Source: a virus
IMG/VR virus record: IMGVR_UViG_3300034418_007711
Span: 1-37,840 of that record
Direction: 5' to 3' (one strand)
Length of the DNA: 37,840 nucleotides
Shown here: positions 28,924 through 34,093 of the stretch, in pieces
How positions within the stretch are numbered: position 1 is the first letter of the stretch
Layout of the letters: each line of letters starts with the position of its first letter
Translations under genes and position numbers: made by a program
Notes under the pieces: generated by a model
What the model was told of the DNA's origin: nothing
Database searches by the model: none
Seen by the model: only the letters and a program-made list of their open reading frames with translations

Positions 28924-29634
28924 TCAATATCCTTTTAGCATAAACATAGAAGGCTCATGAACACTATATAACTTCTCAATTTTTGTTTTTGTCTTTTTAT
29001 CAAGAACGCAATTTATCTCACAAGACCATACTTCTTTAAACGGTGACTGATACTCACTTATATATACTTTGTGACCCTTCTTTACTTGATCCTCACACCA
29101 TTGATAAAACTCATCATGATTGAAGTTGAATTTGTAGTCAGTTGTATTTCTATATGGTGGATCGCAATAGATGACGCTCTTCGAAGGGATATCCAAATCA
29201 TAATATTGACAGTGATATAGCTCGACGTCTTTTATTTTTGAGCTTATTTTTAATAACGCATTTTTGCTTTCAAGAGCATAATTTTGTTTTTTTAGACTGT
29301 CTTTTGCATATCCGGAGAAAAACTTTCCTCCGAATGAACAACCGAATCCGACAAAAGCGACTAGATGATCTGGGAAGCCGGATCGATTATTCTTGATAGC
29401 GTTATATTCATCTTCTGTTATTTTAGACGGCGGAATCCAGCCGGCTTGAAGAGCCTTAAACATTGCAATCAACTCTTTGTTTATATCCGAGCCGATTCGC
29501 TTTCCTTTTGCTTTTGCTAGAATAGAACAAGAGCCGGCGAAAGGCTCGACCCAATAAGATTCCGGGCTTCTTTCTAGTTCAATATAGTTGATGATCTTAT
29601 TCGCTATTCGTCTTTTAGACCCTAAGTATCTCAT
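28924..29634 (-). CDS. dam: DNA adenine methyltransferase, D12 class (Dam-like), 236 aa
   Basis: RYLGSKRR at the N-terminus, SAM motif VEPFAGSCS (29-37), and catalytic DPPY (158-161) in the order of alpha-class adenine methyltransferases such as Dam; the family commonly acts on GATC. The protein is complete but slightly short. AAGGA inside the end of the terminase gene serves as the ribosome site. The gene is visibly more A/T-rich than its neighbours, a sign of later acquisition. No cognate nuclease is present, so it probably protects phage DNA from host restriction or marks it for packaging or expression. Target sequence is inferred, not seen. Confidence 0.9.
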   Translation of the reverse strand: MRYLGSKRRIANKIINYIELERSPESYWVEPFAGSCSILAKAKGKRIGSDINKELIAMFKALQAGWIPPSKITEDEYNAIKNNRSGFPDHLVAFVGFGCSFGGKFFSGYAKDSLKKQNYALESKNALLKISSKIKDVELYHCQYYDLDIPSKSVIYCDPPYRNTTDYKFNFNHDEFYQWCEDQVKKGHKVYISEYQSPFKEVWSCEINCVLDKKTKTKIEKLYSVHEPSMFMLKGY

Positions 29635-29635
29635 C

Positions 29636-31006
29636 TTAAAAGTCCTTTGCGGACGCTCCGCCGGTTCTTACCTTGCGAGAACGATTAGAGCTAGTTGATC
29701 TTGATTTATATCCGCTTTGAATCGACGTGTCATTCCAATTATACAAGATACAATCATAACGAAGAGCGTCGAGCGGATCTTCGCGGCCGTCTTTGACCGG
29801 CTTCTCTTGCTTATCCCAAGCATAAGAAAGAAGAGCTTTTCTCAAAGAGTTTCCCGTCGCTCTTTCTCCTTTATCCCATACGTCGCGAGTAATCATGTAT
29901 CGACGTTGAGCGAAAGCTCTTTTTAGTCGTTGAATACCGTTGAGAACGTCCGTCCGAATCGGATCCGTTGTCGATCTCAAAGCGATTCCGAGTCCGACCG
30001 GCGGAGCTGTTCTCATAGCTCGAAAAGCACTCGCTCCGGTTTGATCGTTTCGAGCCCTTCCGGCTTTGTCCGCGACTCCGTCGTCTAGCCATATTCGGGA
30101 AGAAGGAGCTTGATCTTTGAGCGATCGCGGCCACGCTATAGAAGTAATCAGTCTGGCGAGTTGCTCCGTCGTGACTTCTTTTGGATTGAATTCCGCACAA
30201 ATGACGCTCGCTTCGAGTTCTTCATCGTAAACAATAATCAAGACGCTCGGTTTTCTGAATCCCCAGTCGATTGCGATTCTTGCGGTCATCGATTCTTTAT
30301 ACTGCCAATTATCAAGAATGAGCGACTCGGTAAACTCAGAGTAAATCAAACCAGTCGGTGGCTTCGGCTTGTTCATCACCATCGCTTCGCGTTCATCTGC
30401 CGGGAGGAGCTTTGTCGCTTCGAACCAGTCATCGCTTAAGTTATCTTGATTGACATAAGATGAATATAAGAGCGGAGCGTAGTTCGCTTGTTCGCTCATG
30501 TCGCACCACCATGCACCAACGACCGGAAGTCCGACCATGATTAAGATCGGACTTTCGCCGGCTCTTAAACGTCCGAGTGCTTTATGAGCGACTTCAGCGT
30601 TTAATGTTTGACATTCATCTATGAGACAGACTCCCGAAGTGATGTTTAGACCTTCAAGCGGATTGTGCGTCGCGTCCCTCGTTCCCGGCCGATAATAGCT
30701 TCGACAGTAAACAGAAGAACCGGAATGAGTATCAATCCAAAGTTTCAAAGAATAGTTGTAAGCCCACCCGAGCGGAACGAGCCACTTCTCAATCTCCGGC
30801 ATTAATACCGATTGATAGCGCGGAGCTGTATCAGTAATTAGAAGAGCCGAAGTCCCCGGTCTCATTTTAGAAACAAAGAGAATCGAGAAGACAAGAGCCG
30901 CCGTCTTTCCCGAACCCCAGCCGCAACGAGCCGCGATGATCTTGTCTTTCTTAATGATTCGCTGAATGATGCTTCTTTGTAGCTCGTTGAGATTGAGTTC
31001 GTTCAT
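29636..31006 (-). CDS. terL: Terminase large subunit, 456 aa
   Basis: ATPase: Walker A GWGSGKT (29-35) and Walker B VCLIDE (126-131), with the coupling region after it. Nuclease: IDWGF (Asp247), DDGVAD (308-313) and EDPLDALRY (409-417) place the acidic metal ligands of the RNase H-like domain. It pumps DNA into the head through the portal and cuts the concatemer. Its ATG overlaps the stop of the alternative-frame ORF of the methyltransferase region as ATGA. The C-terminal tail (430-456) is Ser/Arg-rich. Confidence 0.93.
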   Translation of the reverse strand: MNELNLNELQRSIIQRIIKKDKIIAARCGWGSGKTAALVFSILFVSKMRPGTSALLITDTAPRYQSVLMPEIEKWLVPLGWAYNYSLKLWIDTHSGSSVYCRSYYRPGTRDATHNPLEGLNITSGVCLIDECQTLNAEVAHKALGRLRAGESPILIMVGLPVVGAWWCDMSEQANYAPLLYSSYVNQDNLSDDWFEATKLLPADEREAMVMNKPKPPTGLIYSEFTESLILDNWQYKESMTARIAIDWGFRKPSVLIIVYDEELEASVICAEFNPKEVTTEQLARLITSIAWPRSLKDQAPSSRIWLDDGVADKAGRARNDQTGASAFRAMRTAPPVGLGIALRSTTDPIRTDVLNGIQRLKRAFAQRRYMITRDVWDKGERATGNSLRKALLSYAWDKQEKPVKDGREDPLDALRYDCILYNWNDTSIQSGYKSRSTSSNRSRKVRTGGASAKDF

Positions 31007-32082
31007 GATTCTTCTTGTTCAACTTGTGCCGGAAGATCGAAACTTAGTCCCTTATACGCTCGTTCTTGCTTTCCGTTGTGATCCCTAGCTTGCGGAGTCG
31101 CCCAGTTCTTTCCAAAGCACTCGAAACGCTCGTTCGGCTGTATCGGGAACGACTCCATTTCCGAGAAGTCTGAGCTCGTCTGTTCTATTGTCACAATCTT
31201 GATACAGCTCGGAGAAGTCCAGCCGATCGGAATTCCCATGAGCATTTCTACCCACCGCGGATTTAAAACTTTTTTTACTGACATTCCTTGCACTCGACCC
31301 AATATCTGATTTTCTATTCGATTCTTCCACCTTTTGTCTGATTCTGGACTCGATCCTCCCATTTTTGCTTTTGACATTCCTACTCTCGGAGTTCCCCAAA
31401 GCCCTTGATGGTTCAAAAGAATATTGCTCTTGTCCTCTGTATGCCGGAAAGACTGTCCTTCTTGATCTTCTGTTTTTACTGAGAAGATTATTGACAGATT
31501 CAACGCTTGATCGTCTTGTCTCGTTTGAGATTGCAAGAATAAAGACTCTTTTTCGTTGGTGAGGAGCGCCGATTTCGCTCGCTGAGAATATTCCGAACGT
31601 CGCTGTGTAGTCAATTCTTTCCAGCTCTCGGAGGACATGGAGGAGAACCGGAGTTCCTTCCGGATCGTTCCAATCGTCTCCGCTGAGTTTACTTGACAAG
31701 ATTCCTTCGACGTTCTCCAAGAAGACAATTGACGGTCTTGAGATTTCGATTCCTCGTTTAATGAAGGGAAAGAGATGTCGTTCGTCTTGATCTCCTTTTC
31801 TCCTCCCGGCTCCGGAGAACGGTTGACAAGGAAAGCCGCCCGACAAGATATCCACTCTTTCGCGAAAGAGACTCCAGTCGAGTGTTTTAAGATTCGTCCA
31901 GATAGGAGCTGGATCGATGAATTCGTTTTCAATCTTCGCAACCAAGTTCGCGACGGCGAAGGCTTCGATCTCCACATAAGCGATTGACTCAATCGCTCCG
32001 AGAGCTCGTTTAAGTCCGAGATCAATTCCTCCGTAGCCGGTACAGAGTGAGAGATGTTTAAGTTTTTCGAAATTATCCACAT
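31003..32082 (-). CDS. Overlapping +1-frame ORF across the methyltransferase gene, 359 codons
   Basis: Starts directly after the stop of the 32083-32376 gene (TGA-ATG) and ends in ATGA with the terminase start, so both ends fit the operon. It stays open for 359 codons through the whole methyltransferase gene; other same-strand out-of-frame ORFs here reach only about 110. Its C-terminal third contains LNPRWVEMLMGIPIGWT (273-289), WGTPR (229-233) and WATPQARDHNGK (327-338), which I know from the variable target-recognition region of phage m5C methyltransferases. The N-terminal 200 residues look like a Ser/Arg-rich shadow. Real product could start internally or come from a +1 frameshift. Confidence 0.6.
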   Translation of the reverse strand: MWIISKNLNISHSVPATEELISDLNELSERLSQSLMWRSKPSPSRTWLRRLKTNSSIQLLSGRILKHSTGVSFAKEWISCRAAFLVNRSPEPGGEKEIKTNDISFPSLNEESKSQDRQLSSWRTSKESCQVNSAETIGTIRKELRFSSMSSESWKELTTQRRSEYSQRAKSALLTNEKESLFLQSQTRQDDQALNLSIIFSVKTEDQEGQSFRHTEDKSNILLNHQGLWGTPRVGMSKAKMGGSSPESDKRWKNRIENQILGRVQGMSVKKVLNPRWVEMLMGIPIGWTSPSCIKIVTIEQTSSDFSEMESFPIQPNERFECFGKNWATPQARDHNGKQERAYKGLSFDLPAQVEQEES

Positions 32083-32086
32083 TCAT
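31085..32086 (-). CDS. DNA cytosine-5 methyltransferase, 333 aa
   Basis: All core m5C motifs are in order: I LSLCTGYGGIDLG (12-24), IV GGFPCQPFS with catalytic Cys87, VI FLENV (122-126), VIII QRKRVFI (177-183) and X LLGNGVVP (307-314). The region 190-300, where the target-recognition domain belongs, is Ser/Arg/Asn-rich and low in hydrophobic residues, while the +1 frame of the same DNA carries recognisable family motifs. The start overlaps the preceding stop as ATGA; GAGGAC lies upstream. It methylates cytosine in an unknown site and likely protects the phage from restriction. It lies between the two terminase subunits. Confidence 0.9.
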   Translation of the reverse strand: MNVDNFEKLKHLSLCTGYGGIDLGLKRALGAIESIAYVEIEAFAVANLVAKIENEFIDPAPIWTNLKTLDWSLFRERVDILSGGFPCQPFSGAGRRKGDQDERHLFPFIKRGIEISRPSIVFLENVEGILSSKLSGDDWNDPEGTPVLLHVLRELERIDYTATFGIFSASEIGAPHQRKRVFILAISNETRRSSVESVNNLLSKNRRSRRTVFPAYRGQEQYSFEPSRALGNSESRNVKSKNGRIESRIRQKVEESNRKSDIGSSARNVSKKSFKSAVGRNAHGNSDRLDFSELYQDCDNRTDELRLLGNGVVPDTAERAFRVLWKELGDSAS

Positions 32087-32376
32087 TTGTCCTCTTTTTT
32101 GATAATTAATGGTCTCTTAGTCAATGAGCCGAAGATCGCCGCGTCCCTCATAGCAATTAGCCATTTGCAAGCGAGACGATCCGCCCGTCGTCGTTTCTCG
32201 TTTTCGCTAGCTGTTCTATAATTCGACATCGATGAAAGCGTTTCATAATATTGATTTGCTAATATACTCCGGAGCTGATCTTGATCGTACTCGACTCGAT
32301 TGTCTTCATTTATACGAATGATCGCCGGATCGAATAAATCGCTCGGTTGAAAGTAGATCGGATCCTCACTCTTCAC
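32083..32376 (-). CDS. Hypothetical protein between small terminase and methyltransferase, 97 aa
   Basis: Starts with GTG 32376, supported by GGAG 7 bases upstream, and overlaps the small terminase end by 11 bases. Acidic N-terminus, basic middle (SENEKRRRADRLACKWLIAM) and a Lys-rich tail. No family recognised. Tight overlaps on both sides suggest constant co-production with terminase; a packaging accessory is possible but unproven. Confidence 0.6.
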   Translation of the reverse strand: MKSEDPIYFQPSDLFDPAIIRINEDNRVEYDQDQLRSILANQYYETLSSMSNYRTASENEKRRRADRLACKWLIAMRDAAIFGSLTKRPLIIKKEDK

Positions 32377-32818
32377 TAGCTGACTCCGACTTCAAGAACT
32401 CTTCGCTCGCTTGTTGAATCATACTCGCGACAAGATCAGTTCCGTCGCTTTTCTTGTCGATCGTCATGTCAACTTCTCGCTTCAAGCTCCAGCGTTCCGG
32501 GAGCCTTCTTTCAAGAAGCCAAGCGATCGCTCTCCAGTCGCTCTTTTCATTTCCAAGCCGCTTGATCTCTTTAATCATGACAGCTTCAGCGTAATCGATC
32601 GCCGCTTCAAATTCCGCGTTGAACTCTTCGTCATTCTGTCTCCATTTCTCGACAGTCGATCGAGAAAGGTTCGCTAGTGAACAAGCCGCGTCGTAACTCA
32701 TTCCCGATCTCAAGTTTTCGAGAAGCGGTTCAATGTATTTAGGAATCTTTTTTGACGGTCTTCCTTGAGGCCTCTTCTTGCTTTCTTTTGAACTCTTCGA
32801 TTTGCTCTTGATAGACAT
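32366..32818 (-). CDS. terS: Terminase small subunit candidate, 150 aa
   Basis: A basic tail (1-25) precedes an HTH unit, GMSYDAACSLANLSRSTVEKW (about 39-59), then a helical part with DWRAIAWLLERRLPERW (about 94-110) and an acidic C-terminus. This matches small terminases, whose DNA-binding domain recognises the packaging site while the C-terminus contacts the large subunit. The large subunit gene follows two genes later. The gene overlaps the preceding one by 80 bases. GGAG lies 9 bases before ATG 32818. Confidence 0.8.
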   Translation of the reverse strand: MSIKSKSKSSKESKKRPQGRPSKKIPKYIEPLLENLRSGMSYDAACSLANLSRSTVEKWRQNDEEFNAEFEAAIDYAEAVMIKEIKRLGNEKSDWRAIAWLLERRLPERWSLKREVDMTIDKKSDGTDLVASMIQQASEEFLKSESASEE

Positions 32819-33409: not shown

Positions 33410-33434
33410 TAAACCGGAACTCAGTTCCTATTTA
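33410..33434 (-). repeat. 25-bp intergenic palindromic repeat, copy D
   Basis: Core GGAACT-C-AGTTCC. It supplies the TAG stop of thyX and lies directly before the ribosome site of the 136-residue gene. With copy C it frames that gene exactly. Confidence 0.9.
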
Positions 33435-34093
33435 AAAAAAGCGTTCATCGAAACTGGAAACAACTCCTCAAGCTGTTCTTGAATCAAACTCGCAACGACT
33501 TGCGTTTCCGGTTGAGCATGACTGTCTAGTCTCAGCTTCAAAAACTTGATCCAGTTGTGAAGATTGCCGGTCATGTAAAACGTTGTATAAGTCGACTCTG
33601 GAAGAACACAACGAGCAAGCTCGCGAGCGACTCCTCTTTCGATTAGCTTATGATAAGCCTTCAAAGACTGAGCGACTGATTCTCGATAGATCTCAAGAGC
33701 GAGCTCGTCGTCAAGATCTCCGTCCGAACATTGAAGAGCCGTATCGCTTTGAGATCGGAGTCTTCTCGGCTCCCATATTTCAATTTTCTCGGACGTGTAT
33801 CGTCTTGATACTTCGTTATAAGAGAAAGTTCGATGTCTCATGATTTGACTACGAACAAAGAGCGGAACTTTGATTCTGAAGGTGATCGAATTATGTTCAA
33901 ACGGCGAAGTATGATTGTTCTCTGCGAGATAGTTAATCAATCGTTTGTCGCGACTAGTCAGCTCCGGCTCGAACTCTTTGAACTCTTCATAATTGATAAA
34001 TGAAACGCGAGCGGCTTGAACGACAGTATTGTCCGATCCGCTTGATTGAACAAGTTCGATGAATCCGATCGCGTCCGTATAAAGAAAGATCAT
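33428..34093 (-). CDS. thyX: Flavin-dependent thymidylate synthase ThyX, 221 aa
   Basis: The signature RHRTFSYNEVSRRY (86-99) is the RHRx7S ThyX motif. EHNSITFRIKVPLFVRSQIM precedes it and LRLDSHAQPETQ follows, as in the family. ThyX makes dTMP from dUMP using FAD and methylene-tetrahydrofolate, without the tetrahydrofolate oxidation of ThyA. The phage uses it to raise the dTTP supply during replication. Complete and of normal length. AGGGAAAT lies upstream of the ATG. Confidence 0.95.
   Translation of the reverse strand: MIFLYTDAIGFIELVQSSGSDNTVVQAARVSFINYEEFKEFEPELTSRDKRLINYLAENNHTSPFEHNSITFRIKVPLFVRSQIMRHRTFSYNEVSRRYTSEKIEIWEPRRLRSQSDTALQCSDGDLDDELALEIYRESVAQSLKAYHKLIERGVARELARCVLPESTYTTFYMTGNLHNWIKFLKLRLDSHAQPETQVVASLIQEQLEELFPVSMNAFFK

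Follow-up and report, generated by a model that had tools for sequence, protein, structure and literature searches.

A putative two-subunit m5C DNA methyltransferase of phages encoded by two reading frames of one DNA stretch

The locus described here is very probably that of a phage m5C DNA methyltransferase naturally split into two subunits, both chains of which are encoded by one stretch of DNA. It lies on the minus strand of a 37.8-kb virus record (the window, meaning the whole stretch analysed, 37,840 nucleotides), between the genes for the small (32366-32818) and the large (29636-31006) terminase subunit, and comprises a frame-0 chain, alpha, and a +1 chain, beta. In the proposed scheme alpha would provide SAM binding and catalysis (motifs I-VIII) together with motif X, the two being connected by a linker, and beta would supply the recognition module or modules and motif IX, that is, the small domain missing from alpha. 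One mRNA would give both chains from two starts 4 bases apart behind a single ribosome-binding site, and the chains would then assemble on DNA into one methyltransferase. Beta is presumed to be translated in the window phage, with activity expected only from the two chains together, target choice would be made through the beta modules, and the role of the enzyme may be, for instance, to shield phage DNA from host restriction. The features of the locus, in window coordinates, are as follows.

31085-32086, minus strand: alpha ORF (frame 0), 333 residues, with m5C methyltransferase motifs I-VIII and X (PF00145, AlphaFold, Foldseek).
31003-32082, minus strand: beta ORF (+1 frame), 359 residues, with an overprinted N-terminal part, recognition modules and motif IX (phrog_1008, +1 homologues, stop depletion in relatives).
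32080-32095, minus strand: start region common to both, AGAGGA followed by the alpha ATG (32086-32084) and the beta ATG (32082-32080) (sequence).
31517-32062, minus strand: alpha catalytic domain, residues 9-190, motifs I-VIII (confident AlphaFold core; frame-0 wobble).
31190-31465, minus strand: alpha residues 208-299, a predicted disordered linker lying over the beta recognition module and motif IX (low pLDDT; wobble in +1).
31109-31189, minus strand: alpha motif X, residues 300-326, ELRLLGNGVVPDTAERAF (confident helices; frame-0 wobble; matches phrog_1008 293-318).
31888-32025, minus strand: beta residues 20-65, an N-terminal segment that overlies the catalytic core and is apparently selected only in the long-beta class (frame-0 third-position differences of 0.19-0.22, against 0.42-0.44 in short-beta genes).
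31267-31398, minus strand: beta recognition-type module 1 (WGTPR...), residues 229-272 (W-x-T-P module ahead of motif IX; likeness to L113).
31216-31266, minus strand: beta motif IX, LNPRWVEMLMGIPIGWT, residues 273-289 (profile match to in-frame motif IX of other m5C enzymes).
31006-31104, minus strand: beta module past motif IX (WATPQARDHNGK...), residues 327-359, mostly beyond the alpha stop (matches +1 modules of L012, L020 and L022).

Division of the motifs between alpha and beta

The two ORFs are tightly packed against each other and against their neighbours. The spacer from AGAGGA is 3 nt to the alpha ATG and 7 nt to the beta ATG, which lies 4 bases past the alpha ATG and immediately behind the TGA of the upstream gene (TGA-ATG), and the 3' end of beta overlaps the terminase start at 31006 in an ATGA. 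This open +1 frame of 359 codons, with its TGA-ATG start and ATGA end, had been pointed out in a preliminary description and is confirmed at 31003-32082 (-), as is the presence in that frame of the strings LNPRWVEMLMGIPIGWT, WGTPR and WATPQARDHNGK. In the surrounding DNA, the large terminase gene is closely followed downstream by a second DNA methyltransferase gene at 28924-29634 (-) (phrog_56; its sequence resembles the adenine D12 type), and a thymidylate synthase gene (phrog_85; flavin-dependent ThyX-like by sequence) is found upstream of the packaging genes at 33428-34093 (-).

Alpha carries the m5C methyltransferase motifs I, IV (PCQ), VI (ENV), VIII and X, and PCQ, EN and LGNGVVP are among the invariant columns of the alignments (A1/A6). 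It had been taken for a complete m5C enzyme, and its place in the family is upheld by the match to PF00145 (E 5e-37), but this match extends only over profile positions 2-251 of 324, and frame 0 is not complete because motif IX and the WPTP-type recognition modules sit in the +1 frame. Both motif IX and a recognition domain were sought in the alpha chain and are absent, motif IX being present in +1 instead. The frame-0 string VGRNAHGNSDRLDF, which had been proposed as a second functional recognition form of the type V-G-R-x-A-D/H-G, is better read as an out-of-frame shadow of motif IX, since TGG GTN GAR in the +1 frame forces G-R or G-G upon frame 0. The AlphaFold model of alpha (pTM 0.75) is confident in the catalytic core and the motif X helices, and residues 208-299 are mostly disordered, with secondary structure in three residues only; the Foldseek alignment of alpha with M.HhaI covers about 182 columns of 327 residues (E 7e-14). 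Such a model is the picture that a split enzyme would be expected to give.

Beta has the m5C methyltransferase motif IX in its conserved string LNPxWVExLMGxPxGW. A profile built from 133 beta segments matches the in-frame motif IX of other enzymes, from a Streptomyces plasmid and from Mycobacterium and Gordonia phages, with E values down to 1e-10, and hhalign gives beta motif IX a probability of 98% against a small profile that includes a canonical E. coli plasmid enzyme. Ahead of motif IX the relatives have between 0 and 7 W-x-T-P modules per gene, the order and number of which differ among related genes that have modules in common (e.g. L020, L021 and L024), a pattern as would be expected of exchangeable recognition cassettes. 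In the window beta one clear module precedes motif IX and another, WATPQARDHNGK, follows it. Similar modules stand in frame with the catalytic domain, together with motif IX and motif X, in Mycobacterium phage Saroj (L113), and for that reason the W-x-T-P reading can be regarded as a genuine protein module.

Could beta, then, be a separate overprinted protein with a role of its own, such as a regulator or a counter-defence factor, and not a methyltransferase subunit at all? The selected N-terminal segment that is found in addition in the long class would suit such a protein, as would the finding that beta alone has no significant match in Pfam or NCBIfam. A profile search of the PDB with beta likewise gave no match, and the AlphaFold model of beta alone (pLDDT 56, pTM 0.28) is confident only in part of a long helix (151-177) and in motif IX; against phrog_1008 the window beta scores E 1.2e-11. 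A separate role is nonetheless unlikely given that beta bears the very motif IX that alpha lacks, that the predicted structure of alpha is without the region between VIII and X, and that in Mycobacterium phage Vagabond the +1 gene has modules, IX and X, while in Saroj modules, IX and X occur in one chain with the core.

Openness, constraint and start sites of the two frames

Within the window gene the +1 frame contains no stops inside frame 0 past the first codon, which is left out of the test as the start codon context always yields one TGA in +1. The probability of this outcome is 3e-5 if codons are used as in the other genes of the window and 0.013 when only the gene's own codons are shuffled. 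The unusual length of the +1 ORF that had first drawn attention is borne out, as 21 other large window genes contain 8-47 +1 stops each and have no +1 run of more than 116 codons. A beta-only search of viral contigs returned 22 loci, several at full length, in almost all of which frame 0 and +1 are open and in which there are many +2 stops.

The decisive evidence for dual coding, as judged from sequence, is comparative. To avoid selection for beta, a sample of 80 loci was gathered solely by frame-0 similarity, and the expectation for +1 stops was derived from synonymous shuffles that preserve alpha's protein and codons. Across motifs I-VIII, 2 stops in +1 are seen against 208.5 +/- 10.1 expected in the 77 non-redundant genes whose catalytic domain could be scored, 75 of which have no +1 stop over this region; the depletion amounts to about 20 standard deviations in counts that ignore kinship among genes. 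The +2 frame of the same 77 genes, as a control, has 564 stops against 583 expected and thus no depletion. Seen from beta, frame-0 stops between VIII and IX number 13 against 340 +/- 13 expected (64 genes). Stops are therefore scarce both ways, each frame being kept open where the other one carries the family motifs. Frequent +1 stops in homologues with an intact frame 0 had been named beforehand as the observation that would tell against an overprinted gene, and with 2 seen against 209 expected the idea survived.

The variability of the individual codon positions indicates, in addition, which frame codes where, and both frames are under selection. Variation is greatest at the frame-0 third position over motifs I-VIII and, from VIII to X, at the +1 third position (position 1 of frame 0), even when it is the frame-0 proteins that are aligned. 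In the motif IX block the differences are 0.545/0.173/0.097 at frame-0 positions 1/2/3, and in the motif X block 0.228/0.167/0.586; these two blocks were found via protein patterns and are to that extent partly circular, which does not apply to the region-wide wobble comparison from VIII to X. The excess conservation at +1 codon positions that had been sought from the outset is thus found. A frame-0 block within the alpha linker, WPxRPGxxQxxWExPR, also appears constrained in frame 0, so the linker may hold one functional patch, and the division of motifs between alpha and beta would accordingly not be perfectly clean.

The relatives fall into a long beta class, as in the window, and a short class, in which +1 is closed upstream and beta begins inside alpha, often near codons 47-59. 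Comparison of the two (697 long pairs, 21 short pairs) makes the short class an internal control for overprinting constraint. In the short class frame-0 third positions vary freely (0.42-0.49) ahead of the beta opening and then fall to 0.17-0.23, whereas in the long class the differences are already 0.19-0.22 at codons 20-60. This early restraint, confined to the long class, points to an extra selected segment of beta overprinted on the catalytic core.

Initiation signals for beta are likewise apparent in the relatives. In the long class 105 of 114 non-redundant betas start with an ATG no more than 45 nt from alpha's catalytic start; in 58 of 116 genes the start reads ATGTG, giving a beta ATG and an alpha GTG, and alpha is without any ATG start in 61 of the 116. 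Shine-Dalgarno matches of at least 5 nt precede the first internal beta ATG in 49 of 99 cases, compared with 11 of 319 other +1 ATGs in the same genes (P = 1e-25), an enrichment that speaks for independent initiation and against frameshifting.

These signals bear directly on a second alternative, which is about as improbable as a separate role for beta: a programmed +1 frameshift past motif VIII that fuses the core to the recognition module and IX, the unshifted product having X. The motif order along the DNA is indeed canonical, and a few relatives have IX or modules in frame with the core. Frameshifting, though, presupposes a downstream frame without a start of its own, and here the beta ATG is either conserved at the gene start or replaced by an internal ATG behind a Shine-Dalgarno match, with +1 stops upstream; neither kind of start is explained by a frameshift, nor is the openness of +1 over the whole catalytic domain. 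Moreover, the shifted chain would be without motif X, and no frame-0 stop forces a shift. Of the three options first offered for the locus, a frameshift supplying the recognition domain is thus unnecessary, and the internal starts of relatives speak against it; the best supported is a second, overprinted protein by which the enzyme is completed, the evidence being the scarcity of +1 stops and the +1 conservation.

The third option was an ancestral frameshift with both forms surviving, such that +1 would be the decaying relic of a once in-frame recognition region and only frame 0 would be in use. Lineages do differ, as this supposes, in the frame that motif IX has with respect to the core, but a relic would collect stops and lose its codon pattern, and +1 is the constrained frame between VIII and IX over deep divergence, which makes it very unlikely. 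Least probable of all is chance, with the codon composition of a conserved enzyme leaving +1 open and the motifs coincidental: the own-codon shuffle of the single window gene and the +1 similarity that frame-0 conservation induces to some degree lean that way, against which stand the depletion over the relatives with its clean +2 control, the start-site enrichment and a homologous motif IX.

Breadth and variants among relatives

How widespread is the layout? Viral contigs and species-representative genomes were searched with a DNA pattern for one form of motif IX, blind to other features. Among the matches listed, motif IX is in the +1 frame in 107 of 112 viral loci and 108 of 110 bacterial loci with a catalytic domain in reach, and on this count the two-in-one layout appears to recur in hundreds of phage and bacterial loci. 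In a tree of the catalytic domain the +1 layout extends across all sampled groups, and the six placements in frame 0 are accounted for by three changes. L303, among these six, was considered as an in-frame fused enzyme and rejected; it looks like a one-base indel right before motif IX, and the placement is probably a sequence error.

Several relatives distribute the motifs in other ways. In L109, L110 and L111 (a Streptomyces plasmid, Mycobacterium phage Graduation and Gordonia phage JKSyngboy) the W/L-x-T-P modules (TRD) are in +1, and frame 0 has IX and X along with the catalytic domain. The module array of Saroj (L113, 2001-3392) switches frame midway, modules 1-2 lying in +1 after VIII, where +1 then closes, and modules 3-6, IX and X lying in frame 0. 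In Vagabond (L356, 1029-1974) the alpha chain, gp6, ends after VIII, and the overlapping +1 gene, gp5, has a module, IX and X. Finally, in L018, L019 and L069 (near 1997-2990) indels exchange the frames, such that the first half of alpha hits stops and the first half of beta is fused in frame to WPSRPG...LGNGVV; the identical sequence occurs in two metagenome contigs.

Public annotation of alpha/beta loci is inconsistent, and usually one of the two is shown. For instance, Paenibacillus phage Jacopo (L353) has both nested CDSs in RefSeq (498-1553 and 700-1404; gp56/gp57), Pseudomonas phage phPA-G (L354, 601-1329) has only beta, annotated as a hypothetical protein, and Salmonella phage S9-5 (L355, 597-1331) has only alpha.

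Counting against the split-enzyme reading are the poor model of beta alone, the constrained linker block and the differently partitioned relatives L109-L111. Evenly poised between acceptance and doubt is the broader proposition that the dual-coded two-subunit enzyme would be a common phage and prophage m5C type, in which the window class would stand out by total overlap, a new selected N-terminal element of beta, and a beta that acts as an interchangeable multi-cassette specificity subunit reshuffled by phages, with both frames open.

If this broader proposition is true, many of the genes that annotation shows as complete cytosine methyltransferases code for only half an enzyme. The split-enzyme reading would explain why phage m5C methyltransferases without motif IX are found beside hypothetical proteins rich in WPTP and LNPxWVExLMG, as these would be the two halves of one enzyme and one gene. 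An enzyme cloned or annotated from a single frame may turn out inactive, and specificity may be misassigned where phage DNA modification is surveyed from single-ORF calls. To our knowledge, long same-strand overlapping genes in prokaryotes are rare and mostly weakly supported; an overlap met with again in hundreds of loci, both frames of which show measurable selection, would allow tests of how dual-coded genes evolve and are translated.

Comparison with known systems

Split m5C methyltransferases are already known. The Lee, Kam and Shaw work of 1995 reportedly found the small subunit of EcoHK31I to be read from an alternative frame within the large one, and M.EaeI is said to be arranged likewise; the window locus, in which beta overlaps all of alpha in +1, resembles the nesting reported for EcoHK31I. 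The division of motifs is also similar, as M.EcoHK31I (YGGCCR) has a large subunit with motifs I-VIII and X and a small subunit with motif IX (PMC3404938), a likeness to alpha and beta that is drawn by description only. Differences are that the small chain is shorter there, whereas the window beta spans the whole gene and starts beside alpha; that the predicted TRD of EcoHK31I is placed on the large subunit (PMC3404938), whereas the W-x-T-P modules are on the window beta; and that the window pair is in a phage, with no adjacent restriction gene seen. EcoHK31I-like pairs were sought on plasmids and not found there. M.AquI is another m5C enzyme of two polypeptides, with an end-to-end split (PMC3404938), in which IX and X are on the small subunit and the genes do not overlap along their whole length, unlike the window locus with its X on alpha; the Vagabond pair gp6/gp5 is an AquI-like split.

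Among phage proteins, phrog_1008, the family description of which is only 'DNA methyltransferase', matches the window beta, the Jacopo beta (E 6e-72) and the beta of a Pseudomonas species, and is in effect the beta family. The Fernvirus pair gp56/gp57 of Jacopo is nested and in +1 as in the window, although its beta begins about 67 codons into alpha, whereas the window beta covers all of alpha. The multispecific m5C methyltransferases of Bacillus phages (SPR, phi3T, rho11) have several recognition modules in a row, which, as seems likely for the beta modules, are exchangeable between relatives, but they are single chains in one frame. Among the papers searched, none treats nested phage methyltransferases or presents the layout as general. 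The whole-gene form and its breadth look new, and what this locus and its relatives would add to the known split enzymes is an overlap of the whole gene with starts that nearly coincide, an overprinted and apparently selected N-terminal segment, arrays of cassettes carried by the nested chain, and a layout of wide occurrence.
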